A DNA stretch of 64,000 bases, taken from NCBI GenBank assembly GCA_001768195.1, contig MENI01000112.1, positions 16,261 through 80,260 on the forward strand, read 5' to 3'. The position numbers and the translations under genes were made by a program. Position 1 is the stretch's first letter; each line of letters starts with the position of its first letter. Source of the stretch: Bacteroidetes bacterium GWA2_40_15 (GTDB lineage Bacteria > Bacteroidota > Bacteroidia > Bacteroidales > VadinHA17). This document shows positions 4,201 through 60,585 of the stretch, one piece after another. The notes beneath the pieces were generated by a model that saw only the letters and a program-made list of their open reading frames with translations, had not been told where the DNA came from and did not search any database.

Positions 4201-4236
4201 AAAGGCTGTTCCTTAAGGGCAGCCTTTTTATTTTTT
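4201..4236 (+). terminator. Rho-independent terminator of the SusC/SusD unit
   Basis: AAAAGGCTG (4201-4209) pairs perfectly with CAGCCTTTT (4221-4229) around an 11-nt loop and is followed by a T-rich run (TATTTTTT). It lies 21 bases after the SusD stop. Confidence 0.85.
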
Positions 4237-4277
4237 GCTGGTTGTTAATTGCTCGTTACTTGTTGCTTGTTGAACTT
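4236..4277. repeat. Degenerate 7-bp tandem array, TTGCTTG type
   Basis: Six consecutive 7-mers read TTGCTGG, TTGTTAA, TTGCTCG, TTACTTG, TTGCTTG, TTGAACT. The period is exactly 7 throughout. It lies in the convergent gap between SusD and the NlpC/P60 gene, directly after the terminator. Confidence 0.6.
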
Positions 4278-4323
4278 TAAACCTTAACCCTGGAACTTTG
4301 AATTCTAATACCCATCCCAGGCC

Positions 4324-4355
4324 CCCCGCCTAAGCGGGGCAGGCTCTCCCGGGAG
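4324..4355. repeat. GC-rich hairpin and adjoining palindrome
   Basis: CCCCGC-CTAA-GCGGGG (4324-4339) is a perfect 6-bp stem, followed by the palindrome CTCCCGGGAG (4346-4355). It is much more GC-rich than its surroundings and could act as a bidirectional terminator or be a fragment of a dispersed repeat. Confidence 0.5.
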
Positions 4356-4370
4356 GGGATCTATCGAGCA

Positions 4371-4400
4371 CCCTGCTCCCTGCTCCCTGAGCCCTGAGCC
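4371..4400. repeat. 7-bp tandem array, CCCTGCT/CCCTGAG type
   Basis: Units are CCCTGCT, CCCTGCT, CCCTGAG, CCCTGAG and a partial CC. The array ends 5 bases from the stop codon of the minus-strand NlpC/P60 gene. Confidence 0.75.
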
Positions 4401-4405
4401 TTTTT

Positions 4406-5170
4406 CTAATCCAGTATCCTTCTTATCATCCTCAGCCTATGCGAGTAACCATTGATCTCCTTCTTGAATATCCCCTGGTGGTCAATGGAATCAATTCTTA
4501 CCCTGCCTGAAGCATGTATTACCAGACCTTGTGACAGGATCATCCCAACATGTGATATCTTCCCACGCTCATTATCAAAAAAGACCAGATCACCCGGCCC
4601 CGCGTCATTTATAAAATCTATCTGTTTGCCGGCTTCTGCCTGCTGCCAGCTGTTACGTTGTATTGCAGTGCCATGTATCTTATATAACATCTGGGTAAAT
4701 CCCGAGCAGTCAAGTCCCGAGGGGACTCTGCCTCCCCATATATAAGGACTGTTTATGAATCTCATTGCAGTATCTGTAATTGACTCTTTTGTTGATACAT
4801 AGCTACTGCTGAAATCAGGTGAGGCTGTGTAAATATTACTGCCTGCAGTGAAGCGGCCGGTTTTAAAATCAGGATTGAAGATTTCACAACCAGCCTCCAG
4901 TACAATCTTTGTCTTATCGTTCTTATAGCAGAGCAAAGAGCGGTTAAGAACATTGCCTTTTGCATCGGAGTCATCAGCGGAATGTTGCAGATGATCGATA
5001 TCTATCCATCCGGAATATTTATCAAATTCCGTTTCAATTTTCATCCAGTCTCCGGAGATGTCAGTTACAGTATATCTTTCTCCGAACAGTACCTGGCTCA
5101 ACATCTCGTTTCTGTGTGAAGGCCCCGATCGCAGGGGTACAAAAACGTTCTCACATATATATCTTTCCAT
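4406..5170 (-). CDS. NlpC/P60 (C40) cysteine peptidase with SH3-like N-domain
   Basis: 254 residues. The N-terminal half (about 1-115) contains SH3-like segments, with a recognisable W-x-K...GWI pattern at 42-56. The C-terminal half (about 130-250) is an NlpC/P60 domain: SGLDCSGF places the nucleophile at Cys155, ISHVGM gives His207 and VIHASG gives the third residue His219. Family members cut gamma-D-glutamyl-diamino-acid bonds in peptidoglycan stem peptides. No signal peptide is visible (MERYICENVFVPLRSG), which fits a cytoplasmic muropeptide-recycling enzyme like dipeptidyl-peptidase VI rather than a secreted hydrolase; this is inference. It converges with SusD across a repeat-filled gap. 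Confidence 0.88.
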   Translation of the reverse strand: MERYICENVFVPLRSGPSHRNEMLSQVLFGERYTVTDISGDWMKIETEFDKYSGWIDIDHLQHSADDSDAKGNVLNRSLLCYKNDKTKIVLEAGCEIFNPDFKTGRFTAGSNIYTASPDFSSSYVSTKESITDTAMRFINSPYIWGGRVPSGLDCSGFTQMLYKIHGTAIQRNSWQQAEAGKQIDFINDAGPGDLVFFDNERGKISHVGMILSQGLVIHASGRVRIDSIDHQGIFKKEINGYSHRLRMIRRILD

Positions 5171-5246
5171 TATTCAGTAGTTTATTCAAAATTAGTAAAT
5201 ATTGCGGAAACTCCCGGCGGAACAAAGTCGTCATCCATTTGATATT

Positions 5247-5347
5247 AACCGCAAATCGCAAAGACATTGCGCAAAGATCACAAAGGATTACATATTAAAC
5301 CATAAACTTTGCGGTCTTCGCGAAGACTTTGTGTCCTTTGCGGTTAA
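5247..5347. repeat. Inverted intergenic repeat built from GCAAAG units
   Basis: TTAACCGCAAA at about 5247, followed by GCAAAG and CACAAAGGA, is mirrored by CTTTGTGTCCTTTGCGGTTAA ending near 5347. The arms enclose short GCAAAG/CTTTGCG copies and TTCGCGAA. It occupies most of the divergent gap between the NlpC/P60 and HD-domain genes. No gene was seen here. Confidence 0.55.
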
Positions 5348-5403
5348 TGGATTTAAATTTTAAGACAAACCTTTGTAATAAATAGAGGATCGAAAAAAAT
5401 ACC

Positions 5404-5411
5404 TAATTTTG
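5404..5411 (+). promoter_or_regulatory. Candidate -7 box for the HD-domain gene
   Basis: TAATTTTG matches the Bacteroidota -7 consensus TANNTTTG and lies 34 bases before the ATG. The nearest upstream TTTG (5372-5375) is about 28 bases away, longer than the usual 18-20, so the -33 element is uncertain. Confidence 0.45.
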
Positions 5412-5444
5412 CAGCTGAAAATCAGCTACTAAACACCTGGTGCG

Positions 5445-6824
5445 ATGTCTTTAACTGAAAAGGCCGGTAAGCCGACAAAGAAAGATTTCCTGAATATCAT
5501 TCTGTTCGTCACCAGTATTTTGGCTGTTGTAGCTGCAGGCAGGAGCATTACTGATTTTTTTAGCATTGATATAACAGGAGACATAATTATTGTCTCCACA
5601 TGCTATCTGCTTCTTTATATATTCTTTTCCCATTTCCGTCATGAGATACTATATGTATCAAGGAAAATATTTTTTATCCTGATTGTTATACTGGCATTCG
5701 TCCTTTTTACAGGGATCGTAACGGCTCTTCCTGATGAAAACATGATTTATCTTATCCCCTTCACACTTATCCCTGTCGTTATAAGGATCTTCTATGATGC
5801 CAGGCTTGCATTGTTTGTACTGCTGATAACGTTAATGCTTGCTGGATTTATGGTAACTGATCCGTTTGAATTCATTTTTATGAGCCTGATAACCGGAGTG
5901 GTGGCCATCTTATCTCTTTCTGACATAAACCGAAAGTATAAGCTGCTCTTTTCGTCATTCATTGTTACAGTAACATACATTGTGATTTATCTCGCCTTAA
6001 CAATCCGTAATACCGGTAGTATAAACAATCTGAGCCTGCATGATATTAAATGGTTCTTCGGAAACGGATTATTGATTTTATCGGGATTTCAGCTTATTTC
6101 TCTGTTTGAGAAAAGGTTCTATTTCTTATCTGATTCAACAATGCAGGAATTATCTGATTCAGATCACCCTCTTCTTCGCAGGCTTTCCGAAGAGGCTCCC
6201 GGTTCATATCAGCATTCGCTGCAGGTAGCCAACCTTGCCGAAGCTGCCTCCAGAGCAATTGGAGCAAATGTTTTGCTTGCGCGAACAGGTTCGCTTTATC
6301 ATGATATTGGAAAAATTTCCGATCCATCATATTTTATTGAAAACCTGCTCCCGGAAAACAGTCCTCATCTGGATATGAATCCGGCAGAAAGCTCCCGAAT
6401 CATTTTAAACCATGTGGATGAAGGAGTGCTTCTCGCACGGGAATACAAACTTCCTGTTCAGCTGATCGATTTCATCAGAACACATCACGGAACAACAAAA
6501 GCCTATTTTTTTTATAAGAAGTATCTGGAAATGGGGAATGATGGGAAGGGTATGGAGAAGTATTTCACATACAATGGTCCCAAACCATTTTCACGTGAAA
6601 TGGCCATAGTAATGATGGCTGATGCGGTAGAGGCAGCCTCACGTACTCTTGAGAATTATACTGATGAGAGTATAAGTGAACTTGTTGAAAGGATAATCAT
6701 TATTCAGGAACAGGAAGAACAGTTCTCGGATGCTCCGCTTACCTTCAGGGATATTTCTGAAATAAAAGCTGTGTTCAAGAAGAGACTTTCAAATATATAT
6801 CACTCCCGTATCGCCTATCCCTGA
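5445..6824 (+). CDS. Polytopic membrane HD-domain phosphohydrolase (7TMR-HD/PgpH-like, short form)
   Basis: 459 residues. Residues about 15-225 form six or seven hydrophobic helices. The rest is a cytosolic HD domain: SYQHSLQVANLAEAA, LYHDIGK (the HD pair) and RTHHGTTKAYFFYKKY, with a downstream MMADAVEAASRTL. Known relatives such as PgpH hydrolyse c-di-AMP and carry a large extracellular 7TMR-HDED domain before the membrane helices; this protein starts directly at the helices, so it is about 200 residues shorter than common Bacteroidota relatives. The upstream gap is repeat-filled and noncoding, so I see no lost N-terminus. c-di-AMP hydrolysis is inference from the family. Confidence 0.82.
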   Translation: MSLTEKAGKPTKKDFLNIILFVTSILAVVAAGRSITDFFSIDITGDIIIVSTCYLLLYIFFSHFRHEILYVSRKIFFILIVILAFVLFTGIVTALPDENMIYLIPFTLIPVVIRIFYDARLALFVLLITLMLAGFMVTDPFEFIFMSLITGVVAILSLSDINRKYKLLFSSFIVTVTYIVIYLALTIRNTGSINNLSLHDIKWFFGNGLLILSGFQLISLFEKRFYFLSDSTMQELSDSDHPLLRRLSEEAPGSYQHSLQVANLAEAASRAIGANVLLARTGSLYHDIGKISDPSYFIENLLPENSPHLDMNPAESSRIILNHVDEGVLLAREYKLPVQLIDFIRTHHGTTKAYFFYKKYLEMGNDGKGMEKYFTYNGPKPFSREMAIVMMADAVEAASRTLENYTDESISELVERIIIIQEQEEQFSDAPLTFRDISEIKAVFKKRLSNIYHSRIAYP

Positions 6825-6825
6825 G

Positions 6826-6883
6826 CCTTACTCCTTACGCCTTACGCCTTGCGCCTTGCGCCTTGCGCCTTGTGCCTTGTGCC
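6826..6883. repeat. 7-bp tandem array, CCTTACG/CCTTGCG type
   Basis: Eight exact-period units: CCTTACT, CCTTACG x2, CCTTGCG x3, CCTTGTG x2, then CC. Adjacent copies tend to be identical, suggesting stepwise duplication. The array fills the whole convergent gap, starting 2 bases after the HD-gene stop and ending 2 bases before the LolA stop. Confidence 0.9.
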
Positions 6884-6884
6884 C

Positions 6885-7523
6885 TCATCTCATATCGATA
6901 ATCTCCACACCCTTATACTTTTCAGGATTGAAGATGAAAGTCTCCTGTTCCGGTTTGAACTTCAGATTATATTCTTTAACAAGTATGGTTAATACCACTC
7001 CGTCATTCCTTTTGTATTCCATCCTCTTAAGATCTGTAAGTGTTTTTCCTATTGTCAGTCTCACCCTTGTCAGATCACTATCAGGTTCTTCCGGATATAG
7101 GTCGATTAACCAGGAATCAGGCTTTTCTTCGATCAGCCTGGTCTTAAACCCTTTTTTGTACATAGTGAAGATCTCTGAAGGCTTATTCTGGAAAGAGTCA
7201 TCCTTATTGTCGGGCCTGGTAATTGTAACCTCTTTTTCAGCGACGAGATAGCTCCACGAAATATCTCCGTTAAACCAGGCTATGTTATCTTTAAGGTCGA
7301 GTTTGTATCTGTCTTTACTGATTATTACTGATCCGTTCGTGGTGTCGTGCCTGTTTTCAGCGAGATCATCAGTTACCAGGATGAATTTCATTGATACGGA
7401 TGGAGCTCCGAGAGCATTTGAGGAGAATTTATCAAGTACCTTAACTGCCGCAGGATCTGTCTGTCCTGAAGCAATAAATGTAATAAACAAGACTGGTAAA
7501 AGTAGAATTATCCTGATTTTCAT
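6885..7523 (-). CDS. LolA-like outer membrane lipoprotein carrier protein
   Basis: 212 residues from the ATG at 7523; an in-frame ATG at 7532 adds MEI but MKIRIILLLPVLFITFIASG is the better signal peptide. The mature protein has the LolA pattern: VLDKFSSNALGAPSVSMKF, GSVIISKDRYKLDLKDN, DISWSYLVAEKEVTITRPD and a C-terminal FIFNPEKYKGVEIIDMR. Family knowledge: a periplasmic chaperone that ferries lipoproteins from the LolCDE exporter to the outer membrane. It starts just downstream of ftsK on the same strand, which recurs in Bacteroidota and suggests cotranscription. Confidence 0.88.
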   Translation of the reverse strand: MKIRIILLLPVLFITFIASGQTDPAAVKVLDKFSSNALGAPSVSMKFILVTDDLAENRHDTTNGSVIISKDRYKLDLKDNIAWFNGDISWSYLVAEKEVTITRPDNKDDSFQNKPSEIFTMYKKGFKTRLIEEKPDSWLIDLYPEEPDSDLTRVRLTIGKTLTDLKRMEYKRNDGVVLTILVKEYNLKFKPEQETFIFNPEKYKGVEIIDMR

Positions 7524-7532
7524 AATTTCCAT

Positions 7533-9983
7533 TTATTCAAGACTCTTCAAAATCTGTTCCAAAGCTATAAAATCGGAGCAGAGAACGTCGCGGGCCTTGC
7601 TTCCTTCAAATGAACCAACAACACCTGCGGCCTCGAGCTGATCAATTATTCTGCCGGCACGGTTGTAACCGATTGACAGTTTTCGCTGAATAAGGGAGGT
7701 TGAACCCTGCTGATGCTGGACAACAAGCCTGGCAGCATCTTCGAACATCGGGTCTCTCTTGCGAAGGTCCACCTCTATGGCTCCTGAATCGCTGTCGTCA
7801 ACATATTCAGGCAGGTGCATGGCATCGGGATAGCCTTGCTGTGATCCTATAAAATCTGTAAGCTCTTCTATTTCAGGAGTGTCGATAAATGCACACTGCA
7901 CCCTTACCGGTTCGTTGCCTGAAGAAATAAGCATGTCGCCCCGGCCTACGAGCCTGTCGGCTCCTGTTGCATCGAGTATGGTTCGTGAATCGACTGATGA
8001 AAATACCCTGAATGCAATACGTGTGGGGAAGTTTGCTTTGATAAAGCCTGTTATTATGTTAGCTGAAGGACGCTGGGTGGAGATTATAAGGTGTATTCCT
8101 ATAGCCCTTGCCAGCTGGGCAAGCCTTCCGATAGGGCCTTCAATTTCGCGGCCGGCAGTCATTATAAGATCTGCAAATTCATCTATTATGAGAACAATAT
8201 AGGGCAGATATTTATGTCCTTTCTCCGGATTAAGCTTTCTCGATATGAATTTTTCATTGTACTCCTTGATATTTCTCGATTGTGCCGCTTTAAGCAGTTC
8301 AAGCCTGTTATCCATCTCAATACACAATGAATTAAGGGTATTTATGACTTTCTGGGTATCTGTGATAATGGCATCCTCATCTCCCGGCAGCTTGGCCAGG
8401 AAATGTCTTTCAATTTTCATATAAAGAGGAAGTTCGACCCTTTTGGGATCGATCAGCACAAATTTGACTTCTGAAGGATGCTTCTTATATAGAATAGACG
8501 TTATAATTGCATTTATACCTACAGATTTTCCCTGTCCGGTTGCACCTGCAACCAGCAGGTGAGGCATTTTTGTCAGATCTACGATAAAGGGTTCATTGGT
8601 TATTGTTCTGCCCAGAGCCAGGGCAATATCAAACTTGGTTTCCTGAAAAGCCTTTGAGGTGATTAGCGACCGCATTGAGACCATTTCAGGTTTTTTGTTG
8701 GGGACTTCTATCCCGACTGTGCCTCTTCCGGGAATAGGTGCTATAATCCTTATTCCCAATGCTGAAAGGTTCAAAGCAATATCATCTTCAAGCGACTTGA
8801 TACGGGCTATTTTTACTCCGCGCTCAGGAACAATTTCATAAAGTGTTACAGTAGGACCGATTGTTGCCGATATGCTCCTGATACTTATCTTATGGTCGCC
8901 CAGTGTCTTTATAATATTCTCCTTATTTTGAAATACTTCGCTGTTATCAAATGATGACTCTGATTTATGTTCCTTTAAAATGGTAACAGGCGGAAATTTG
9001 TATTTCGATAAATCCAGCCTCGGGTCGTAGTTTTCCATTATCTTCTCTACCTCCTGGGCAGTAAGAATATCTTCTGCTTCCGGTCTGGATATATTAATCG
9101 GGACCACATCCTCCAAAGGCAGGTTTCGAATGTCATTATCAAGATCGTGTACTATCGGGCCTTTGGTAAGCTGTTCATCGCTCCTGTCCATGGCATCATC
9201 CTCTTCAACCCTCTCATTCAGGTTCCTGACCACAAACTCAACAAACTCATTTTCTTCCTGTTCATCAATGGAAATATCATTCTCCGGCTCAGGATGAAGG
9301 GGATCAGGGACTATTTCTTCCTCAGCTATTTTAACATCATCAGGTTTATGCTTAAAAAGAATCAGGAATGGTTTTAGAAATAGTCTGAAGGACTCAGGTT
9401 TAAAACTCAATGCGAAAATGAGGTAAGTAATGGTAATAATTATTACCATTACCCCGGTTCCGGGTGATCCCAGAAAAGACTTAAGCCATTCCGTAATAAA
9501 ATATCCCTGGGCGCCACCTGGTCCGCTTTTAAGGTAACCATCTGCCACTCCGAAAATATAACTCAGGATGAGAGACAATATTATTGCAGCGAATGTGAAC
9601 TTTGTAATAAGGTTTACAGGCTTTATTTTAGGAAATTTCAGAAGATATAGTCCGAGTGAGCCAAAGATCATGGGGATAAAAAATGCACCATATCCGAACC
9701 CAAAAGCCATTAAATACCTCGCCAGGAACAGTCCGCTTTTCCCTGACCAGTTTTTAACTTTAATCTCAGCACCTGATAATACTTCTGAATTTGGCAGGCT
9801 GTCATCGAACTTCCACCAGACCAGATATGAAATACAGGCAAGCAGGAGATACAGTGCAAAACCTGTAATAAGGATTCCGGCAATGAATTTGATCCTCTCG
9901 TCAGTAAAGAAGGATTTTGAGTTTGCAGAACCTTTAGCTGATTTCGTATTCTTCTTGGGAGACTCTTCCTTCTCTTTGGTCAT
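7533..9983 (-). CDS. ftsK: FtsK/SpoIIIE-type DNA translocase
   Basis: 816 residues. About four membrane helices lie within residues 30-195, followed by an acidic linker (about 215-320), the alpha/beta translocase core and a winged-helix gamma domain. Walker A is GATGQGKS at 480-487, Walker B is IVLIIDEFADL near 596-606, and the intervening FVLIDPKRVEL is characteristic of FtsK. The C-terminal QRKLSIGYNRAGRIIDQLE (about 760-790) is the DNA-reading gamma module. It pumps chromosome ends across the division septum and guides XerCD dimer resolution. Length and architecture are normal. The lolA-like gene follows with almost no gap. Confidence 0.96.
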   Translation of the reverse strand: MTKEKEESPKKNTKSAKGSANSKSFFTDERIKFIAGILITGFALYLLLACISYLVWWKFDDSLPNSEVLSGAEIKVKNWSGKSGLFLARYLMAFGFGYGAFFIPMIFGSLGLYLLKFPKIKPVNLITKFTFAAIILSLILSYIFGVADGYLKSGPGGAQGYFITEWLKSFLGSPGTGVMVIIITITYLIFALSFKPESFRLFLKPFLILFKHKPDDVKIAEEEIVPDPLHPEPENDISIDEQEENEFVEFVVRNLNERVEEDDAMDRSDEQLTKGPIVHDLDNDIRNLPLEDVVPINISRPEAEDILTAQEVEKIMENYDPRLDLSKYKFPPVTILKEHKSESSFDNSEVFQNKENIIKTLGDHKISIRSISATIGPTVTLYEIVPERGVKIARIKSLEDDIALNLSALGIRIIAPIPGRGTVGIEVPNKKPEMVSMRSLITSKAFQETKFDIALALGRTITNEPFIVDLTKMPHLLVAGATGQGKSVGINAIITSILYKKHPSEVKFVLIDPKRVELPLYMKIERHFLAKLPGDEDAIITDTQKVINTLNSLCIEMDNRLELLKAAQSRNIKEYNEKFISRKLNPEKGHKYLPYIVLIIDEFADLIMTAGREIEGPIGRLAQLARAIGIHLIISTQRPSANIITGFIKANFPTRIAFRVFSSVDSRTILDATGADRLVGRGDMLISSGNEPVRVQCAFIDTPEIEELTDFIGSQQGYPDAMHLPEYVDDSDSGAIEVDLRKRDPMFEDAARLVVQHQQGSTSLIQRKLSIGYNRAGRIIDQLEAAGVVGSFEGSKARDVLCSDFIALEQILKSLE

Positions 9984-10026
9984 TGCTGAATTAAGTTTTC
10001 CTTTGGGTTAGTTTAAAAACGCAATC

Positions 10027-10052
10027 CAAAGGTAATAATTTTGCTCCTTCAA
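10027..10052 (-). promoter_or_regulatory. Candidate promoter of ftsK
   Basis: On the minus strand, TACCTTTG (10027-10034) matches TANNTTTG, preceded by TTTTTG with a 15-base spacer, slightly short. It lies 44 bases upstream of the ftsK ATG. Confidence 0.5.
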
Positions 10053-10123
10053 AAATATGTGTCAAAGTGATTTTGTTTCAATCCTTACAGACTGATTCCT
10101 GTTGCCTTCAGCCATCAGCCTTA

Positions 10124-11111: not shown

Positions 11112-11388
11112 ATGAAAAAGAAACTTGCCGTTGTCGCACTTGGCGGAAATGCTCTTCTCAGGGGCGATCAGACTGGCACCATTGATGAGCAGGAGCAGAA
11201 TACCACAGAGACTCTTGAAAATCTTGTTTTTCTCATAAATGAAGGTTATGATCTGGTGATCACGCATGGAAACGGACCGCAGGTAGGCAATATCCTGATG
11301 CGAAATGATGCTCACTGAGGCATTTAAGCTTGCCGATACAAAATTCGGTTCAAAGATAACTATGGAGTATGAGGATGAGAAGCGGTAG
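11112..11388 (+). pseudogene. arcC: Carbamate kinase, internally deleted
   Basis: The first 66 codons are an excellent carbamate kinase N-terminus: KKLAVVALGGNALLRGD (the phosphate-binding GGNA motif) and VITHGNGPQVGNILMRND. The frame then stops at 11316-11318. In another frame, 11314-11388 encodes TEAFKLADTKFGSKITMEY..., which I recognise as the carboxyl end of the same enzyme (usual ending ITEA.KLADKxxGxKIT). About 220 central residues, including the catalytic core, are gone, and the two ends are joined out of frame. Intact enzymes have about 310 residues. Its usual arginine-deiminase partner, ornithine carbamoyltransferase, follows intact. Assembly error is an alternative explanation. Confidence 0.85.
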
Positions 11389-11487: not shown

Positions 11488-11550
11488 CCTTACGCCTTTT
11501 GCCTTACGCCTTTTGCCTTACGCCTTTTGCCTTACGCCTTACGCCTTATT
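11488..11550. repeat. 7-bp tandem array alternating CCTTACG and CCTTTTG
   Basis: Nine units of exact period 7: CCTTACG and CCTTTTG alternate three times, then CCTTACG x2 and CCTTATT. The alternation means a 14-bp higher-order unit was duplicated. The unit CCTTACG is the same as in the array at 6826. It lies upstream of the ornithine carbamoyltransferase gene. Confidence 0.9.
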
Positions 11551-11597: not shown

Positions 11598-11599
11598 TC

Positions 11600-37350: not shown

Positions 37351-37390
37351 CACGGAGTTACACGGAGTATGCACGGAGTTTCACGGAGTT
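37351..37390. repeat. Phased CACGGAG repeat
   Basis: CACGGAG occurs at 37351, 37361, 37372 and 37382, i.e. every 10, 11 and 10 bases, close to one DNA helical turn. It precedes the heptamer array in the M28/M14 gap. Confidence 0.75.
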
Positions 37391-37406
37391 AGAACCAGCT
37401 TCCTTG

Positions 37407-37483
37407 CCCCACGCCTCACACCCCACGCCCCACGCCCCACGCCTCACGCCTCACGCCTCACGCCTCACGCCTCACGCCTCATA
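37407..37483. repeat. 7-bp tandem array, CCTCACG/CCCCACG type
   Basis: Eleven exact-period units: CCCCACG, CCTCACA, CCCCACG x3, CCTCACG x5, CCTCATA. It is the longest array in the window and ends one base from the stop codon of the minus-strand M14 gene (37485-37487). Confidence 0.92.
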
Positions 37484-51831: not shown

Positions 51832-51859
51832 CCTCACTCCTCACTCCTCACTCCTCACT
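51832..51859. repeat. 7-bp tandem array, CCTCACT type, overlapping a stop codon
   Basis: Four perfect CCTCACT units. The minus-strand gene ending at 51855 takes its last Glu codon and TGA stop from this repeat, so the array is partly coding. Confidence 0.9.
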
Positions 51860-53885
51860 CTTCCATTACCTTTATCTGGTCGAACCATCCCACCCCCTGT
51901 CCGGGCATGCTGAGGATAAGGTTGGTCCTGACAGTGGGAGTTGTATCAGCAGGAATTGTAACAAATGTTACAAATCGCTTCCACTCTTCAGTTGGTTTGA
52001 ATCTGGCCTTTCCGAATTCTCCGAATTGAATCTCTGCATATTGAGGTATTGGATCATTTTCAAAATGAGGTTCATCTTTCCAAAATGTTGCACCGTTGAA
52101 ACGTTGTTCAGGATCAGATTTTGCCCAGAGTGATATCATATAGGACGAGCCTGCCTTGACCTGGCACGGGAAGAACCGTACAGCAATACTCTTATCCTCT
52201 TTTGGTGTGACAAGCCTCAGGGAATGATTCCCGTCGAAGTATTCCCTTGAATCGGTGAAATATGTGGCACCCATGTCACCTCCCGGCCGGACATAGCACG
52301 CTGATGGTATGCCCGGAGAATATATATTTTCAAATCCGGGATCTTTAATAAGGTTATTCCCATTCGTTATTTTTTTTCTTTCAGATGGTTCCAGGTCGAT
52401 CATATAAACCTGTGAACCGAAAGGGGCAATCTGGTCATTTATCACTCCTCCGGAGAATGACAATGTGCGGTTTTCGAAAAGCACTCTGGCTTTGCCGGTG
52501 TATAATCCTCTGATACTGATTGATGAATTGGCCGGTATATTCTTTTTGTTCACTGCCAAAACTGCGAGTTTCCCTTTGTAAAGCTTTGAAGTGACAATAA
52601 TATCGGGCGATCCTGACGCAACAGGAAATGGTTCTTCATCAGAGAGTAACCAGGGGGTTAATTCAGCTATCTCCAGGGAAATCCTGCCGCATTCAGCCCA
52701 TGTAGCCGCAGATTTAGGAAAGTAGTTGAAGCCCCAGCGTATAAAATATTGTATACCGGTGGCTCCGTTGATTACCGATTGCCATGTCATCGATCTTATC
52801 TCCTGGATAGTGGGTTCCCTTTCCCACCATTCTCCGCCGCCAAATGCCTGTATTACCATCCATTGAGGCTGTTTTCCTCTGAATTCGGAATTGAGCTGAT
52901 GAGCCAGATCATTAACCATACTGATTGGAAGAGTCGGAACCGGGTAAGGATCGGCCATTACTATGTCAAAGGCAGCAGAATATTTTCTTGATGCCATAAA
53001 AGGAGCCATAAATACCATCGTAACAGGGTGCCATGGATCAATTTCCTTTACAGTATTATATATCTTTTCAAGAACTTCAGGAGGGATTTTGAATCCATTG
53101 GGCTCATCGGAGATATACCATGCCAGAAGGGCAGGATGGTTCATAAAAGATTTGATCTCTGCAACAAGTCGTTTGTTTTTCTCCTCTTCAGGAATTGTAT
53201 CTGCTTTCGGACCTGTGGATGCTGAAACTGATAACAAATTATAGTGGACCTTCATACCAATTTCTGCACAGCGGTCCATATATACTTTTCTTTCAGTAAT
53301 TGTGCCGGGGTGGATCTTCTGGTAGGGTGACATCATATTAAACCCCTTTACTATTTCTTCTTCAGCAAGGGTAGGGCTGACAGGTGAGTAACAATAGAAT
53401 CCGAACGGTAAGAACGGTTTTTTGCTGACAACCAGTCCGCCAGTGAGCCTGTCTGTCTTTACCTCATTGGGTTTATATGGAAGGATTGTAAGAAGTGTAT
53501 TTGCTGAATATTTTATTCCTGGCCTCGATGTGTTTGTAATAATAGCTTTAACATTATTCACAGATGGCTTCATTTTCATGCTAAACGGGATCCTCAAAAT
53601 TTTTTTCAACGGTGTGCCTTTCCATGATGAGATTGAATCCTGATCAGATTGGATAGTTATTACCAATTGAGCATATTGAAGTGCCGGAGGCACATGCAGC
53701 AGGAATTCCCCGTTTTTTTCATGAGAATAGAAGCTGAATCTTGTGTAGAGTTTAAATGATGTTGAATCGACCGGTTGTGATAATCCATTTTGAAAAAAAA
53801 GCATAGTCGCAAGCACTAAAATAATGGGAGATAACATTCGTTTGTTTCTCAGTCCCTTTATTCTGTAATTATAAGTATCAAACAT
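51855..53885 (-). CDS. Putative secreted glycoside hydrolase, TIM barrel plus C-terminal carbohydrate-binding domain
   Basis: 676 residues. A signal peptide follows a 16-residue charged start (MLSPIILVLATMLFFQNGLSQ); the internal ATG at 53837 could be the true start. Residues about 150-430 look like a clan-A TIM barrel: KPFLPFGFYCYSP, LLAWYISDEPNGF with Glu261 as probable acid/base, DIVMADPYPVP and GIQYFIRWGFNYFP. Residues about 515-676 form a jelly roll of the CBM4/9 kind (LIKDPGFENIY, SLRLVTPKEDKSIAVRFFP). I cannot place it in a numbered GH family. Likely acts with the GH127-like enzyme that follows. Confidence 0.7.
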   Translation of the reverse strand: MFDTYNYRIKGLRNKRMLSPIILVLATMLFFQNGLSQPVDSTSFKLYTRFSFYSHEKNGEFLLHVPPALQYAQLVITIQSDQDSISSWKGTPLKKILRIPFSMKMKPSVNNVKAIITNTSRPGIKYSANTLLTILPYKPNEVKTDRLTGGLVVSKKPFLPFGFYCYSPVSPTLAEEEIVKGFNMMSPYQKIHPGTITERKVYMDRCAEIGMKVHYNLLSVSASTGPKADTIPEEEKNKRLVAEIKSFMNHPALLAWYISDEPNGFKIPPEVLEKIYNTVKEIDPWHPVTMVFMAPFMASRKYSAAFDIVMADPYPVPTLPISMVNDLAHQLNSEFRGKQPQWMVIQAFGGGEWWEREPTIQEIRSMTWQSVINGATGIQYFIRWGFNYFPKSAATWAECGRISLEIAELTPWLLSDEEPFPVASGSPDIIVTSKLYKGKLAVLAVNKKNIPANSSISIRGLYTGKARVLFENRTLSFSGGVINDQIAPFGSQVYMIDLEPSERKKITNGNNLIKDPGFENIYSPGIPSACYVRPGGDMGATYFTDSREYFDGNHSLRLVTPKEDKSIAVRFFPCQVKAGSSYMISLWAKSDPEQRFNGATFWKDEPHFENDPIPQYAEIQFGEFGKARFKPTEEWKRFVTFVTIPADTTPTVRTNLILSMPGQGVGWFDQIKVMEE

Positions 53886-54098: not shown

Positions 54099-54473
54099 AT
54101 GAAAAAAAACATTCTCTTTTTATTTGTCATAATATTGATTGCTTCATGCAGAAATGTTAGCACCGAAAATACTGCACCTTTACCAGCTTCAAAAGATACC
54201 ATTATTGCAGTTAATTCTGGTAATATAGATTTTGCAAAGTATTTCATTGATAAGACAATGCGTCTCGACTATTTTCACTCGGGAACTGCCACAGAAGAAC
54301 ATTTTGCAAAAGAGGTACATCGCAATAAAGTTGGTGCATTTGAAGGGGCAGGTTACGTATCAAAAGGACTCTACAGATCGCAGATTGTTTGTATTATGTA
54401 CACAAGACACCTGGTATTCTGCAAGGTTTGCAGCAGGACTATCGAAGATGTGATCGGGCAGTATATAAAATAA
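54099..54473 (+). pseudogene. Truncated, frameshifted N-terminus of an M64 (IgA-peptidase-like) lipoprotein
   Basis: The open frame is 124 codons. It starts with a lipoprotein signal (ILFLFVIILIASC) and contains KYFIDKTMRLDYFHSGTATEEHF, matching the M64 N-domain pattern (D.TLRIDYYHTG). After codon about 85 the family resemblance moves to the next frame (TQDTWYSARFAAGLSKM, compare D.TWYSRGF), which then also stops. The zinc peptidase domain (HExxH) is absent. Normal length is over 400 residues. It could be an intact small protein by chance, but the frame change argues for decay. Confidence 0.5.
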
Positions 54474-54516
54474 CGGCGCAACGGCGCAACGGCACAACGG
54501 CACAAAGGCGCAACGG
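54474..54516. repeat. 8-bp tandem array, CGGCGCAA type
   Basis: Units CGGCGCAA x2, CGGCACAA x2, AGGCGCAA and a partial CGG. It begins at the first base after the stop codon of the M64-like remnant. Confidence 0.88.
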
Positions 54517-54554: not shown

Positions 54555-55298
54555 ATGACTACTGAGAAAACTTTTAAATATCCGATGATTGGTACACTTT
54601 TATCGATTAGTGCACCCCAGGTTGCAGAGATAATTGCAATGTCGCGATTTGACTGGGTATTTATCGACATGGAACATTCAGCCATGTCGCTTGAATCGGT
54701 TCAGAATGCTATCCAGATAATGGAAGGGAAGATACTCACTATTGTGAGAGTGCCATGGAACGATGAGGTGTGGATCAAAAGAATCCTTGATACCGGGTGT
54801 GACGGTATAATTGTCCCTATGGTAAACAGCGCTGATGAGGCCAGGAAAGTAGTTCAGGCCTCAAAATATCCTCCGGAAGGCCGTCGGAGTGTTGGACTTG
54901 CCCGGGCACACAAATACGGGGCTTCTTTCAAAGAATATGTTGAGAATGCCAACAGGGATCTTGTAATAATGATCCAGTGTGAACATAAAGATGCTGTTAA
55001 AAATATTGATGATATCCTTAAGGTTAAAGGAATTGATTCAGTCTTCATTGGTCCTTATGATCTCTCAGCAAGTATGAGCCTCACAGGTCAGATATCAAAT
55101 CCAGATGTACAGGCAGCCATCGGATCAGTGAAAGAAAAATGCCGGAAAGCAGGAATGCCCTATGGCATTTACAGCTCGGATACTGACGATATGATTTCAG
55201 AGATAAATACCGGTTGCACATTCTTGTTAACAGGAGTTGATGCAAATATGCTGCTGAATTCATATTCTGATCTTATAAGGAAACTGAAGAAGTCTTAA
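54555..55298 (+). CDS. HpcH/HpaI-family class II aldolase
   Basis: 247 residues from the ATG at 54555; an upstream TTG is less likely. Motifs: FDWVFIDMEHSAMSLESV (catalytic base and metal region), VRVPWNDEVWIKRILDTGCDGIIVPMV (substrate-binding Arg, glycine turn), MIQCEHKDAVKNIDDI (metal Glu) and VFIGPYDLSASM (metal Asp). The family cleaves 2-keto-3-deoxy acids to pyruvate and an aldehyde. It may act on sugar acids released by the upstream glycosidases; inference. Confidence 0.88.
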   Translation: MTTEKTFKYPMIGTLLSISAPQVAEIIAMSRFDWVFIDMEHSAMSLESVQNAIQIMEGKILTIVRVPWNDEVWIKRILDTGCDGIIVPMVNSADEARKVVQASKYPPEGRRSVGLARAHKYGASFKEYVENANRDLVIMIQCEHKDAVKNIDDILKVKGIDSVFIGPYDLSASMSLTGQISNPDVQAAIGSVKEKCRKAGMPYGIYSSDTDDMISEINTGCTFLLTGVDANMLLNSYSDLIRKLKKS

Positions 55299-55302
55299 GT
55301 AG

Positions 55303-56268
55303 TTATCGGAATCGTATCGTAATCCTGTACTCTTCTTCAAGCGGAGTTCTATCAATCATTGCAGGCTTCCATGCTGGTCCATCCTTTATTAGTCTTTTTG
55401 CCTCTTTGGAAAAAGGTGCTCCAGGGCTTGAAATTATCTTCAAATCAGTTAATGAGCTGTCTGTCATTACTTTGAAGCTAATAATGACTATCTCTTCATT
55501 GTTGTTGTCAAGTTCAGGATTCCTGATATTCTTTTCAAGATAGATATTAAAGCTGTCCATGCCTGTAACGGGCTGAGGAGGAATATGACCGGCAATAATA
55601 CTTTTTGCAGCCATGGGCGCCACAACACCTGCCATCCTCGACATTTCCATTTTCTTTTCAGCTTCAGAGGGCCGTAACAGATTATCATCCTCAGCGACCT
55701 GCATTACCTGTTCAATTTCCTCTTTACATGCATCAGCGTCCGGCTTATTATCAGAAGCGATTGCTAATTGCTGAATGTCAGGCAGAGTGGGTGAGGGGGT
55801 TAAGAGGCGATTTGGAGAAGGGGAGAGGGGGAGAACCGGAGATTGAACTATATCCCGGGCTTCAGCCTTTTCTGTTTTATCTTTAAATGGTTCTGATGCA
55901 GGTATTGTTAAAGGAGTTTTCAACTCTTCAGTAAAATTTTTACTGAGAGTAATTTCCTCAGTACTATCCTTTTTGCTGAAGTAAATAACTGATATGGTAA
56001 CCAATACTGCAATCGCAGCAGCTACACGGTAATATATGACAAGGGATCTTTTGTGGATCTTTCTTCCTGCCTTTTTCTTCAGAGCCAACAGATCATTTTC
56101 AGCCTCTTCCGTAGTGACATGTGAAAAACCTTCGACTGCTTCCTCTGCAAAAGGATCCTTTTGAAGTTCCCTCTCAAACGAGTTTCTCTCTTCACCGGAC
56201 ATTTCACCTTTATGGTACCGGAGAAAATCAGTCAGGTTTCTGCTTTTATTTTTATTTATTCTGTCCAT
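55303..56268 (-). CDS. Hybrid membrane protein: anti-sigma-like N-terminus, TonB-like C-terminus
   Basis: 321 residues from the ATG at 56268. The cytoplasmic N-part (about 1-65) resembles anti-sigma N-domains (LRYHKGEMSGEERNSFERELQKDPFAEEAV). One membrane helix is at about 79-95 (YYRVAAAIAVLVTISVIYF). A long Pro/Ser-rich periplasmic linker follows, then a TonB C-terminal fold (about 235-321: IYLEKNIRNPELDN, KIISSPGAPFSKEAKRLIKDGPAWKPA). Its start overlaps the ECF sigma gene by 17 bases. It may link sigma release to an outer membrane receptor; inference. Confidence 0.8.
   Translation of the reverse strand: MDRINKNKSRNLTDFLRYHKGEMSGEERNSFERELQKDPFAEEAVEGFSHVTTEEAENDLLALKKKAGRKIHKRSLVIYYRVAAAIAVLVTISVIYFSKKDSTEEITLSKNFTEELKTPLTIPASEPFKDKTEKAEARDIVQSPVLPLSPSPNRLLTPSPTLPDIQQLAIASDNKPDADACKEEIEQVMQVAEDDNLLRPSEAEKKMEMSRMAGVVAPMAAKSIIAGHIPPQPVTGMDSFNIYLEKNIRNPELDNNNEEIVIISFKVMTDSSLTDLKIISSPGAPFSKEAKRLIKDGPAWKPAMIDRTPLEEEYRITIRFR
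55783..55842. repeat. G-rich repeat-like insert inside the TonB-hybrid coding sequence
   Basis: A 60-base G-rich tract (GGGTGAGGGGGTTAAGAGG, then GGAGAAGGGGAGAGGGGGAG) encodes the low-complexity linker LPLSPSPNRLLTPSPTLP. Its composition matches GC-rich intergenic repeats rather than neighbouring codons. Confidence 0.45.
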
Positions 56269-56848
56269 TTTTATCATCAAGACAAATTTTCAGATTTCTT
56301 TTTGCATTCTGAAGATGACTCTTCACTTTATTTTCATCAAGACCCATTAATGTTGCGATATCTTTGTAGCATCTGTTTTCATAATAAAACTGCCGGATAC
56401 ACTCTTTCTGCTCAACCTTAAGATTTTCAATACATTCCTCCAGCTCTTTATCAAGGTCATATCCATCTTCATCTATAGGATGCAGACTTAAGCTGTTTTC
56501 CATAACGACAACAGTATCATTTATCCATTCCTCCATTTTCTCATTCTTCGATTTTTGAGATCTTAACTTCATAAGGCAATAGTTTTTTGTAACTACATGC
56601 AGCCAGCTGCGGAAGTTATCGATCTTCTGTTTCGGGATTTCTGAAATCAGTTTCTCAAAAATCTGCATTACCGCATCGGATGATTCTTCCCTGTCTTTCA
56701 GGTATTTAAGGCAAACACCATATACAAGGTGCATATATGCAGAATATAATTCTCCAAGCAGATCAAGATCACCTGTTAAAGTGAATTTTTTAAGGAGATC
56801 TTCGTCAGATTGTTTAGCTTTTTTCCTGTCTGATAGCTTTAATAGCAT
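56252..56848 (-). CDS. ECF-type RNA polymerase sigma factor
   Basis: 198 residues. Region 2: DLLGELYSAYMHLVYGVCLKYLKDREESSDAVMQIFEKLI, with WLHVVTKNYCLMKLR; region 4: LKVEQKECIRQFYYENRCYKDIATLMGLDENKVKSHLQNAKRNLKI. Overlap with the downstream anti-sigma/TonB hybrid gene indicates translational coupling. The VWA protein gene is divergent from it. Confidence 0.92.
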   Translation of the reverse strand: MLLKLSDRKKAKQSDEDLLKKFTLTGDLDLLGELYSAYMHLVYGVCLKYLKDREESSDAVMQIFEKLISEIPKQKIDNFRSWLHVVTKNYCLMKLRSQKSKNEKMEEWINDTVVVMENSLSLHPIDEDGYDLDKELEECIENLKVEQKECIRQFYYENRCYKDIATLMGLDENKVKSHLQNAKRNLKICLDDKNGQNK

Positions 56849-56885
56849 CTTTTATTAGAAACAATTCATGGATTTTGATTTCTCC

Positions 56886-56934
56886 CTCTTGTCTTTTCCC
56901 TTTTGTCTTTTGTCTTTTGTCTTTTGTCTTGTCT
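56886..56934. repeat. 7-bp tandem array, CTTTTGT type
   Basis: Units CTCTTGT, CTTTTCC, CTTTTGT x4, CTTGTCT, then CACGCC. It lies in the divergent promoter gap between the sigma gene and the VWA gene, about 40 bases upstream of the sigma ATG. Confidence 0.85.
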
Positions 56935-57047
56935 CACGCCTATATTCATCCCTAAAGATAATTTAAATATGAATTTTTTTTATACGTTTTATGGAATTTG
57001 GAAATTCCCTGCATCCTATGGTAAATGTTTAACCAAAAATTAGTGTC

Positions 57048-58922
57048 ATGAAAACAAGTTTATCAATTTTTTCAATAGTAGTTCTGGCAGCAATTATGAT
57101 TGCTTTTACAGAATCAAGGACCATAACAGGTACGGTTACAGACAGTACCGGGCAGCCTCTTTACGGTGTGACTGTTAAGTCGAAACAATCCTCTGCCATT
57201 ACAACTACAGATCAGAATGGCAATTACAAAATTGTTGTCGACAGACAGGCAGCAACTCTGGTCTTTTCAATCCCGGGTTATTCAACGGTTGTGAAAAAAA
57301 TCGGTGACAGTAATGTAATAAATGTACTGATGAATACAGACGTTTTACTAATTGATGATGCTGCACTGATGAAATTGGATAAAAACAGGGCAATGGAATC
57401 TAAATCGATGGCTGGTATATCAGCTCCCTACTCACCAATGTCGTATGGTTCGCAGAATTCATTTCATGGGTATAACAATGATTTTAACACTGAAGGTTAT
57501 GCTTCTGTAAATGAAAATGGTTTCAAAAATGTTTTGCATAATCCATTATCGACCTTCTCAATTGATGTTGACAATGCATCTTATTCCAACATCCGCAGAT
57601 TCATTAATATGGGTCAGTTACCTCCTGCTGATGCTGTCAGAATTGAAGAGATGATCAATTATTTCCGTTATGATTATCCCGAACCATCTGGTGAACATCC
57701 CTTTTCAGTTTATACTGAAATGGCTGTTTGTCCATGGAACAGGAATCATCAGTTGCTTCATGTAGGACTTAAGGGAAAGAGTATCAATAAATCATTACTT
57801 CCTCCTTCAAACCTGGTTTTCCTGATTGATGTATCGGGATCAATGAGTTCTCCGAATAAGCTTCCTTTGCTTAAATCTGCATTCGGTTTGCTTGTTAACG
57901 AACTAAGGCCTCAGGACAGGGTAGCCATTGTTGTTTATGCGGGAGCAGCCGGTATCGTTCTTGAATCAACGCCAGGGAACATGAAAAAAACAATAATGGC
58001 TGCATTGGATAATCTGGAGGCAGGCGGATCAACTGCCGGCGGTGCAGGACTTAAGCTGGCCTATTCGGAGGCTCAGAAGAATTTCATCAGGGGAGGCAAT
58101 AATCGCATTATTCTTGCAACTGATGGGGACTTCAATGTGGGAGAATCGAGCAATGGAGGAATGGAACGGCTTGTGGAAGAGAAGAGAGAACAGGGTGTTT
58201 TCATAACAGTTCTTGGTTTCGGAATGGGTAATGTTAAGGATGATAAGATGGAGATTATAGCCGATAAAGGAAATGGTAACTATTCGTATATTGATAATCT
58301 CCAGGAGGCAAGGAAGGTTTTGGTTCGCGAGTTTGGGGGCACACTTTTTACAATAGCCAAAGATGTCAAGTTCCAGATCGAATTCAATCCTTTTAAAGTC
58401 CAGTCATACCGACTAATAGGTTATGAAAACAGATTGCTTAATGATGAAGATTTCAACGATGATAAAAAAGATGCCGGAGAGATGGGGGCAGGGCATAATG
58501 TCACAGCTCTTTATGAGTTGATACCTGCCGGTTCAGATGAGACAATTCCTTCAATTGATCCGCTTAAATATCAGAGCAGTAAAGAAAAGACTATGAAAGA
58601 TAGTGATAAATCAGGTGAATATCTGACTATAAAACTTCGTTATAAGAAGCCTGATGGCAATACAAGTATCCTGCTCGATAAACCGGTGAGGGGCTTAATA
58701 AAGGATCTGGATGATGCATCTGATAATCTGAAGTTTGCAGCTGCAGTATCTGAATTCGGTATGATCCTGAGAAATTCTGAATTCAAGGGTAATTCAACAC
58801 TTGAGGGAGCCGCAGCGCTGGCAAGATCTGCAAGAGGAGACGATGAAGATGGATACCGGTCGGAACTTATCAGATTGATCAGTACAGTTAAAGACATGAA
58901 AGTTTTAGCGGATAAAGAATAG
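57048..58922 (+). CDS. Secreted VWA-domain protein with carboxypeptidase-like N-domain (YfbK-like)
   Basis: 624 residues. Signal peptide (IFSIVVLAAIMIAFTESR), then a carboxypeptidase-regulatory-like domain (about 24-97: TITGTVTDSTGQPLYGVTV). Residues about 155-245 contain the conserved FSIDVDNASYSNIRRFINMGQLPPADAVRIEEMINYF block. The VWA domain has an intact MIDAS DVSGS at 261-265 and ATDGDFNVGE. The C-terminal DUF3520 part follows (about 420-620). It binds metal and probably a protein partner in the envelope. The adjacent ECF sigma/TonB genes recur with such proteins in Bacteroidota. Role unknown. Confidence 0.88.
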   Translation: MKTSLSIFSIVVLAAIMIAFTESRTITGTVTDSTGQPLYGVTVKSKQSSAITTTDQNGNYKIVVDRQAATLVFSIPGYSTVVKKIGDSNVINVLMNTDVLLIDDAALMKLDKNRAMESKSMAGISAPYSPMSYGSQNSFHGYNNDFNTEGYASVNENGFKNVLHNPLSTFSIDVDNASYSNIRRFINMGQLPPADAVRIEEMINYFRYDYPEPSGEHPFSVYTEMAVCPWNRNHQLLHVGLKGKSINKSLLPPSNLVFLIDVSGSMSSPNKLPLLKSAFGLLVNELRPQDRVAIVVYAGAAGIVLESTPGNMKKTIMAALDNLEAGGSTAGGAGLKLAYSEAQKNFIRGGNNRIILATDGDFNVGESSNGGMERLVEEKREQGVFITVLGFGMGNVKDDKMEIIADKGNGNYSYIDNLQEARKVLVREFGGTLFTIAKDVKFQIEFNPFKVQSYRLIGYENRLLNDEDFNDDKKDAGEMGAGHNVTALYELIPAGSDETIPSIDPLKYQSSKEKTMKDSDKSGEYLTIKLRYKKPDGNTSILLDKPVRGLIKDLDDASDNLKFAAAVSEFGMILRNSEFKGNSTLEGAAALARSARGDDEDGYRSELIRLISTVKDMKVLADKE

Positions 58923-58928
58923 GAAAAT

Positions 58929-59004
58929 ATTTCCCGCAGATTCCGCAGATTGGCGCTGATAAAATAATTCATGTCGGCAAATATCAGCGTGATCTGCGGG
59001 AAAT
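58929..59004. repeat. Intergenic hairpin with nested arms
   Basis: ATTTCCCGCAGAT (58929-58941) pairs with ATCTGCGGGAAAT (58992-59004); CGCTGATA (58954-58961) pairs with TATCAGCG (58982-58989). It sits between the convergent VWA and gltD genes and could terminate both. The CCGCAGAT unit is also tandemly repeated (58934 and 58943). Confidence 0.8.
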
Positions 59005-59041
59005 TTATCTGAAACTGACCGGTTATATGCTGGTTGCCGGA

Positions 59042-60463
59042 TTAGATACTTTTCAGGTACATGTCAATTTCCAGGGCAACTTTCCTGCCTGAAGCAATAG
59101 CATTGACAACAAGGCTTGCTCCGCTTATTGAATCACCTGCTGCAAAAAATTTCTGACGGCTGGTCATGTGATTATTATCAACTTTTATATTCTTCCTTAT
59201 ATTCAGTTCAACTCCGGAGTCGGTTATAAGTCCTTCAAGTACAGGATGAACAAAGCCCATGGCAAGCAAAACGAGATCAGCTTCAATAATTCTTTTTGAA
59301 TTCGCCACATGTTCCATAACATATTGGCCATTGACTTTTTTCCAGTTTACATCTTCAACTTCAACTCCTGATACCTTAAAATCACTTCCCGTGAATCTTA
59401 GTGTTGAGGTATTCCATGACCTTTCACAACCCTCTTCATGGGAGGTTGAGGTTTTCAATACTTTCCCGAAATGAGGCCATGGATTATCTGCGGACCTCTC
59501 TTCCGGCGGTTTGGGAAGTATTTCAATCTGCATAACCTTTTCAGCCTTTTGTCTGATGGAGGTGCCAACACAGTCGGAACCAGTATCACCACCACCTATC
59601 ACAAGAACCTTTCTTCCCTCAGCATTAATCGGATTATCTGAAGCATTTATCTCCCCTGAGTTTACCCTGTTCTGAAGAGTCAGAAAATCCATTGCAAAAT
59701 GAATCCCTGAAAGATCTCTGCCGTCTATCATTAAATCGCGGGGATGACCCGCACCAATAGTTATGCAGACAGCATCGAACTGCTTTTCCAGCTCAGCTGC
59801 GGTAATGTCCCTGCCTATAGTTATCAGAGTTTTTACTATCACTCCCTCTTTTATCATAAGATCAATCCGGCGATCGATTGTTTCCTTTGACAGTTTGAAA
59901 TCGGGGATTCCGTATCGCAGCAAGCCTCCGGGTTTATTATCTTTCTCAAAAAGGGTAACTGCATGCCCTGCCTGATTCAGCAGGTCGGCAGCAGCCATTC
60001 CGGATGGGCCGCTTCCTATAACTGCAACTTTCTTCCCGGTTCTTATCTTTGGGATTACAGGTTTAATATAACCCTCTGCAAATGCCCGTTCAACAATTGC
60101 AACTTCATTCTCGCGAATTGTAACAGGTTCATTATTAATATTAAGTACACAGGCATGTTCACAACTTGCAGGGCATATTCTGCCTGTGAACTCAGGGAAA
60201 TTATTGGTTGATGCAAGTCTTGTGTATGCCCCTTTCCAGTCACCTTTGTAAAGGAGTTCATTCCATTCGGGAATCAGATTATCGACCGGACAGCTCCAGT
60301 GGCAGAATGGTATACCGCAGTCCATGCATCGTGCAGCCTGAAGCATGCGGTCCTCACTATTCAAAACCTGTTCAACTTCACTGTGATCGCGGATCCTTTC
60401 ACTTATCGGTCTGTTTCCCGCTTCCTTGCGCTTTATCTTTAAAAATCCGTTTATATCAGCCAT
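59042..60463 (-). CDS. gltD: Glutamate synthase small subunit
   Basis: 473 residues from the ATG at 60463; an upstream TTG is unlikely. N-terminal [4Fe-4S] cysteines: CMDCGIPFCHWSCPVDN and GRICPASCEHACV. FAD-binding VIGSGPSGMAAADLLNQAGH (about 148-170) and NADPH-binding VIGGGDTGSDCVGTSIR. It passes NADPH electrons to GltB for the reductive transfer of the glutamine amide nitrogen to 2-oxoglutarate. It is downstream of gltB, separated by a gap holding inverted heptamer arrays. Confidence 0.95.
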   Translation of the reverse strand: MADINGFLKIKRKEAGNRPISERIRDHSEVEQVLNSEDRMLQAARCMDCGIPFCHWSCPVDNLIPEWNELLYKGDWKGAYTRLASTNNFPEFTGRICPASCEHACVLNINNEPVTIRENEVAIVERAFAEGYIKPVIPKIRTGKKVAVIGSGPSGMAAADLLNQAGHAVTLFEKDNKPGGLLRYGIPDFKLSKETIDRRIDLMIKEGVIVKTLITIGRDITAAELEKQFDAVCITIGAGHPRDLMIDGRDLSGIHFAMDFLTLQNRVNSGEINASDNPINAEGRKVLVIGGGDTGSDCVGTSIRQKAEKVMQIEILPKPPEERSADNPWPHFGKVLKTSTSHEEGCERSWNTSTLRFTGSDFKVSGVEVEDVNWKKVNGQYVMEHVANSKRIIEADLVLLAMGFVHPVLEGLITDSGVELNIRKNIKVDNNHMTSRQKFFAAGDSISGASLVVNAIASGRKVALEIDMYLKSI

Positions 60464-60494
60464 ATTATTTTGATTCAATAATTCAACATTTTAA

Positions 60495-60585
60495 GTTCAA
60501 TGTTCAAAGTTCAAGGTTCAAAGTTCAAGGTTCAAGGTTCAAAGTTCAAAGTTCTGGAACCTTGAACCTTTAACCTGAAACCTTG
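60495..60585. repeat. Facing heptamer arrays between gltB and gltD
   Basis: Eight GTTCAAN units (60495-60550, last base T, A, G, A, G, G, A, A) face four AACCTTG/AACCTTT/AACCTGA units (60558-60585), which are close to the reverse complement. The two arms can pair into a long imperfect hairpin. It starts about 10 bases after the gltB stop and lies inside the likely gltBD transcript. Confidence 0.88.

Follow-up and report, generated by a model that had tools for sequence, protein, structure and literature searches.

The closest described relatives of the arrays analysed here are the long simple sequence repeats (SSRs) of bacteria. As presented in the passages of two later papers that cite Mrazek, Guo and Shah 2007 (PMC4679880, PMC4692102), these repeats have units of 5–11 nt, with heptanucleotides the most abundant in most repeat-rich genomes, and are attributed to slippage, 7 nt being proposed as the stretch held by DNA polymerase. 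Heptanucleotides prevail here as well; gene-edge polarity is not mentioned in those citing passages. Why 7 is favoured in long bacterial simple repeats is a question that has stood since 2007.

Heptamers of the types GGGNATC and GGGGA(C/T)T in Xanthomonas and Nostoc were described by Rehm et al. 2015 (PMC4692102), with no regulatory role identified in the parts of that paper drawn on here. Their G-rich strand is the coding strand where it directly follows a stop codon and the non-coding strand where it directly precedes a start codon, and the arrays are nearer to the ORF on their 5′ side whatever its orientation. They are further described as favouring four units and as under-represented in divergent gaps. 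The arrays described here follow the same polarity rule, but unlike the Xanthomonas and Nostoc heptamers, as far as that text describes them, they comprise many words, several of which lack GGG (AAAAGAC), and the gaps that hold them are strongly changed. Neither GGGNATC nor GGGGAYT was found among the 47 listed arrays of the window's own genome (the longest viewed to 100 bases). They are also not G-quadruplex repeats as a class, since AAAAGAC and GGTTCAA hold no GGG; GGGCGCA-type words do.

TAACTGA arrays occur in Beggiatoaceae, Cyanobacteria and five Bacteroidetes, and some of these arrays have further heptamer repeats next to them (MacGregor 2015, PMC4679880). Both systems consist of intergenic heptamer arrays and both include some Bacteroidetes. 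However, in the portions of that paper used here, TAACTGA is a single word that lies mostly just upstream of starts in the main genome, whereas our arrays have many words and often follow a stop codon. No TAACTGA array was found among the 47 own arrays. The STRR repeats of cyanobacteria consist of a few fixed heptamer words per genome. Here, by contrast, 31 modal heptamer classes were found in 47 period-7 arrays, with rotations and reverse complements merged.

For Bacteroidetes, Table 2 of PMC4060949 gives over-representation of one simple-repeat class alone, heptanucleotide repeats of at least three copies, and this only weakly (median category 0.75). The earlier note on this DNA had known of no described Bacteroidota equivalent, which PMC4060949 and PMC4679880, as far as they were drawn on, contradict. 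The tandem repeats of Borgs (PMC9879509) are described there as A-rich arrays of perfect 18–21-nt units, about half of them inside ORFs, and differ from the G-rich arrays here in unit length, ORF location, base composition and perfection of the units.

We found no survey of varied-word, polarised heptamer arrays in Bacteroidales within the open full-text literature, a body of text that most subscription papers lie outside. What is new here is the polarity across many unrelated words, in Bacteroidales; the sources covered report the strand rule for no heptamers other than those of Xanthomonas and Nostoc. The arrays are a real and unusually clear case of a known, poorly explained repeat class. 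A genus with a common period and polarity but varied sequence separates the period from the word: since period and polarity are common and sequence is not, neither selection of a single word nor G-quadruplex folding can be the source of the period.

Period-7 arrays in the window and its genome

The window, meaning the whole 64,000-nt stretch of DNA analysed, was searched with Tandem Repeats Finder and by inspection of the raw letters (Table 1). At least eight gaps with exact period-7 arrays had been claimed for it. The arrays are there by both routes, but the sites at 4236 and 4371 share one gap, so the window has seven such gaps rather than eight. The first of these sites is merely a degenerate stretch, and an extra array was recognised at 60557. 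The arrays had also been called intergenic, which mostly stands; the exception at 51832 overlaps the end of a minus-strand ORF by 6 bases, including the stop codon. The period, described as strict, is dominant but not exclusive, as 8-base and 10-base arrays are also present.

The minus-strand units quoted in the earlier note agree with the raw letters, and the identical units it described as neighbours were seen as runs of identical adjacent units. Its common xxxxAGG core applies to those quoted units and, with rotation, to the arrays at 4371 and 60557 (minus strand). At 60495 it fits on the plus strand only and in part of the units, at 56889 (AAGACAA) it fails entirely, and it does not extend genome-wide, where the frequent words AAAAGAC, AATCGGT and AGAGCAT lack it. 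Repeats of the phase-variation kind would be expected within or ahead of surface genes of variable expression; among the neighbours of the window arrays are the genes for LolA, glutamate synthase and ornithine carbamoyltransferase, and the arrays favour stops. Period-10 arrays of the CACGGAG/CACAGAG type were seen in the window and in two other stretches of the same genome (L004 13908–14002, as a facing inverted pair, and L200 7955–7984).

Table 1. Tandem arrays located in the 64,000-nt window
Position	Strand	Array	Context
4249–4272	.	degenerate TTGCTTG-like period-7 stretch	Tandem Repeats Finder score 34, 82% match; gap shared with the 4371 array
4371–4400	-	period 7, CCCTGCT/CCCTGAG on +	G-rich strand is the sense of minus gene 4406–5170; begins 5 nt past its stop
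6826–6883	-	period 7	fills convergent gap between HD-domain gene and LolA-like gene; G-rich strand begins at lolA stop
11488–11548	-	alternating CCTTACG and CCTTTTG, period 14 made of two related heptamers	upstream of ornithine carbamoyltransferase gene
37351–37391	.	period 10, CACGGAGTTA	contrast case; Tandem Repeats Finder
37406–37481	-	period 7, sense-strand TGAGGCG	begins 3 nt past TAG stop of 842-aa gene
51832–51860	-	perfect period 7, sense-strand GAGTGAG	contains TGA stop of gene 51855–53885
54472–54516	+	period 8, AACGGCGC	contrast case; period-8 class without polarity
56889–56930	-	period 7, TCTTTTG on +	divergent gap; breaks the 5′-neighbour rule
60495–60554	+	period 7, GTTCAAR	gap downstream of glutamate synthase large-subunit gene
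60557–60588	-	period 7, GAACCTT on +; inverted companion of the 60495 array	adjoins glutamate synthase stop

We sampled the source genome, a 4.77-Mb draft in 127 contigs, as the window plus 60 further stretches, mostly contig starts (1,038,852 bases). Arrays with units of 2–30 nt were called with a mismatch-tolerant detector, and the null consisted of order-2 Markov replicates of pooled intergenic DNA. A custom codon-score script called 799 genes (86% coding), so start codons are uncertain. In this 1.039 Mb we found 97 tandem arrays, of which 47 have period 7 (45 intergenic, 2 coding). Period 8 accounts for 15, period 14 for 8 and period 6 for 9 (eight of them from the single contig L201), with 1–3 at each further period found. 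No period-7 array arose in ten replicates of the Markov null. The period distribution, proposed as a genome-wide check with the first observation of the arrays, thus has a clear excess at 7 in this sample. A count over 415 kb, based on runs of at least 10 matched bases, gave 23 intergenic and 3 coding runs at period 7; apart from period 8 (7 runs) and period 14 (6 runs), no other period exceeded 2, and three Markov replicates of that test contained no period-7 runs.

Like the heptanucleotide long SSRs, the arrays are head-to-tail repeats beyond chance among which 7 is the most abundant of the 5–11-nt units, and, their unit not being a multiple of three, they lie outside coding sequence (45/47). 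By scaling, the genome would hold roughly 215 period-7 arrays, an estimate from a sample of mostly contig starts; of 42 arrays, two are found less than 250 bp from a contig start, where 0.65 would be expected. Contig L201 (G000:C9) has several CCTCAA period-6 arrays and facing TAAGGT arrays (759–2017 and 5483–5527), and its genes contain in-frame repeats.

Placement and strand polarity

Arrays not assignable to a single gap numbered 5 of the 47 own period-7 arrays (5/55 own and 2/27 genus arrays when period 14 is included). In the window's own genome, 22 of 42 stop distances are 15 nt or less, whereas placing the arrays at random within their gaps gives 13.9 (P 0.001); start distances this short number 5 of 42 against 6.9. 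A second set came from other genomes of the genus. It is non-random, with some stretches chosen round genes whose arrays had already been seen and five arrays known beforehand, and it omits one 563-base piece (L235) and the short contig L136. There, 12 of 23 stop distances are 15 nt or less against 6.2 expected (P 0.001). Without the five pre-seen arrays the figures are 6/17 against 2.7 (P 0.026), or 9/21 against 3.1 (P 0.0005) with period 14 added. In two further sets centred on gltB, which contain some species of the same genus, the preference for stops is not significant (P 0.06 and 0.20). Divergent gaps hold 8 of 42 own arrays, with 11.1 expected by gap length. At three sites (L216 17138–17182, L015 19015–19047 and L232 12135–12179) the array extends 13–16 bases into the preceding ORF, so that the repeat encodes its last residues and the stop codon.

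Polarity was counted with periods 7 and 14 pooled, under a rule that had been formed on the own set. Where an array abuts a stop codon, its G-rich strand is the sense strand in 34 of 37 cases (20/23 own, 14/14 genus), compared with 229:237 in array-free gaps (Fisher 1.5e-7). Removal of the five pre-seen arrays leaves 29/32 (9/9 in the genus; Fisher 2e-6), and 25/27 remain once arrays overlapping an ORF by more than 3 bases are excluded. A general base skew near gene edges was considered and rejected, as array-free gaps have none after stops (132:144 and 97:93) or before starts (179:189 and 131:152). More broadly, 60 of 73 arrays are closer to the gene on the 5′ side of their G-rich strand than to their other neighbour (P 2e-8), a count that drops one own array without skew and one tie. 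This is the polarity described, in the text of PMC4692102 used here, for the Xanthomonas and Nostoc heptamers. The 5′-side rule is followed by 17 of 20 arrays of the genus set minus the five pre-seen ones and, across four sets, by 30 of 40 at start-codon edges and 12 of 15 in divergent gaps. The two gltB-centred sets alone give 7:2 and 11:4, a trend in the same direction that is significant in neither.

Because the rule also holds at start-codon edges and in divergent gaps, polarity tracks the strand of the array rather more than it does transcription. This favours growth in one direction, either up against a coding edge or away from it. Two transcriptional causes were rejected on the same ground. 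Avoidance of C-rich Rho sites and transcription-driven R-loop growth both predict leaders with a G-rich sense strand, but the start-edge arrays that lie nearer that edge have a C-rich one. Within arrays, unit changes are fewer in the 5′ half in 33, fewer in the 3′ half in 23 and equal in 13 (P 0.23), and their mean position along the array is 0.53 (P 0.09).

The period-8 arrays, mostly of one GGCGCAAN family, have no polarity, with 5 sense-G and 6 sense-C at stops. Members of this separate family were seen in the window at 54472–54516 and in L010 (8623–8680), L223 (9946–10080) and L196 (16281–16362).

Words, spread and turnover among relatives

The arrays share a period and not a sequence. The gap after glutamate synthase carries GTTCAAR in the own genome, CTTTTTA in a relative of 87% identity, GGGAAAA in another and GCACAGA/GGGCACA in a group of relatives. 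The CTTTTTA and GGGAAAA arrays are G-rich on opposite strands. After the 842-aa gene, three species have TGAGGCG, GGTACTG and GGGCACA, respectively. Different words at the same gene ends indicate that the period recurs while the words are redrawn. Three copies of GGGCACA were found in 18 of 63 genomes of the genus, the own genome included, and in just one of 296 genomes of the phylum, namely that of the window; a single shared word was rejected accordingly. In one distant genome of the phylum (G304) the backwards control word was matched 6 and 7 times, so heptamer arrays with a different word exist in this genome.

Sampling of 18 other genomes of the genus (38 stretches, 714 kb) yielded 22 period-7 arrays, a figure biased upward because part of these stretches was chosen round array-bearing genes. 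At least one period-7 or period-14 array was present in 8 of these 18 genomes, with 7–80 kb sampled from each, and array density varies within the genus. A further 24 period-7 arrays were found in 1.35 Mb, made up of 80 neighbourhoods of the closest glutamate synthase relatives in named genomes. None was found in 20 stretches from across the phylum (320 kb), an absence that calls for something lineage-specific.

Array length at orthologous gaps, a comparison between relatives also proposed at the outset, was followed in two sister species, G017 and G020, whose aligned contigs (48 kb) share about 96% identity. Five of their 29 comparable gaps hold a period-7 array in at least one species, and all five differ in length, by 22 to 728 bases; such variation between close relatives is also a trait of the heptanucleotide long SSRs. 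Median gap identity is 0.33 for the array-bearing gaps (n=5) and 0.94 for the array-free gaps (n=24; P 0.002). Identity was computed over the longer allele, so a change in length lowers it by construction; presence or absence of the array is independent of this. In two of the five gaps the sister has no array, and in a third (lolA) its version is short and falls below the array threshold. Part of the flank also differs, beyond a pure change in copy number. Three of the 24 array-free gaps are much altered as well (0.29, 0.36 and 0.57). In this one species pair, the arrays look like they turn over fast. The comparison suggests that arrays rewrite gaps within about 4% divergence, and such rewriting matters for the reading of intergenic DNA, for strain typing and for assembly breaks.

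Origin of the arrays

The observations to be explained are a period of 7 whatever the word, a position nearly always outside genes, a preference for the stretch after stop codons, the polarity and, in one species pair, rapid change. Our preferred reading, to which we assign a probability of about 0.65, is that the arrays are heptanucleotide SSRs made by 7-nt slippage and tolerated beside stop codons, with no binding protein or function needed. Arrays would be born from short chance repeats, and slippage during DNA synthesis would lengthen, shorten and homogenise them in 7-base steps. Mismatch repair handles shorter loops, and 7-base loops would escape it. Such escape would allow 7-base steps to persist although the genome has MutS; there are two MutS-domain matches, on which loss of mismatch repair was rejected as a cause, and two Y-family polymerase matches. 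Changes of 7 bases would break reading frames and disturb leaders or promoters, which would make the post-stop stretch the main safe place. The choice of 7 rather than 6 or 8 may reflect the polymerase grip, the idea published by Mrazek et al.

Of the two processes raised in the earlier note, one that steps by 7 bp is supported by the constant period with diverse words, the runs of identical neighbours, the predominance of transitions among changes between neighbouring units (260/397) and the length changes between sister species. Slippage alone predicts neither the polarity nor its absence from the 8-base arrays; the most likely source of the polarity is growth in one direction along a strand, running either towards a coding edge or away from it. 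A wider possibility, which we regard as doubtful, is that one law independent of the word holds in phyla as distant as those of Bacteroidota, Xanthomonas and Nostoc, with the G-rich strand beginning at a coding edge, mainly a stop. A single directional process stepping by 7 could then be at work, for example reiterative 3′ extension from a nick or break at the site where transcription or translation stops. If so, it would continually rewrite the space between genes.

The arrays could instead be selected 3′-end elements, in which a repeated G- or purine-rich RNA past the stop helps termination, shields the messenger or acts on ribosomes after termination. This would account for the stop preference and the sense-G polarity, and arrays do lie within the gltB–gltD gap in several relatives, but we consider it unlikely. 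The same gene ends are mostly array-free in relatives: after the same three genes an array is present in 6 of 57, the rate over all stops of the genus set being 23 of 536, and this excess is too weak to mark these as hot gaps given that two of the six are sister species. Selection of an element also fits poorly with the exchange of words at one gap (GTTCAAA, CTTTTTA, GGGAAAA, GCACAGA) and with a polarity that also applies beside start codons, with a C-rich sense strand. An inverted partner of at least 10 bases is present in the gap for only 1 of 50 own arrays (swapped-flank control 2%) and 3 of 25 genus arrays (control 0%), against a general hairpin or terminator role, and the window has no match to Rfam families at gathering thresholds. 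A few real inverted pairs exist, such as 60495/60557 in the window. By eye, imperfect GCAAAG-type repeats also form facing arms between genes at window positions 5241–5360.

Alternatively, arrays could form as a block. Reiterative copying would extend a break or nick at the edge of a gene in the 3′ direction, and the extended end would be joined across, so that the G strand starts at the edge. The fixed 5′ edge, a polarity largely independent of gene direction, and the two sister gaps where a whole array is present or absent with nearby flank replaced all point this way. However, many arrays have graded unit-to-unit changes, as in stepwise growth, and arrays of the same word but differing length persist at one gap in related species. 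Block formation, a candidate mechanism, appears improbable. The second process of the earlier note, a DNA- or RNA-binding protein that reads a 7-base spacing, would explain a period that is constant across words. Yet word, copy number and presence all change between sister species, no core is common to all words and the arrays are sporadic across orthologous gaps, all of which makes such a protein very hard to credit. That the arrays are artefacts of a short-read draft can practically be dismissed: the genome is in 127 contigs and some relatives' arrays lie at contig ends, but many separate assemblies contain short arrays bordered on either side by unique sequence, and a gene-edge strand rule is not expected from an assembler.

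Two gene remnants may lie in the window. The ORF at 54099–54473 (124 aa) has only pieces of an M64 peptidase, ends in the 8-base array and is probably a remnant. Upstream of the ornithine carbamoyltransferase gene, positions 11112–11318 hold a short stretch similar to the beginning of an amino-acid kinase (PF00696, 23.0 bits, slightly below the cut-off), which is possibly a decayed carbamate kinase.
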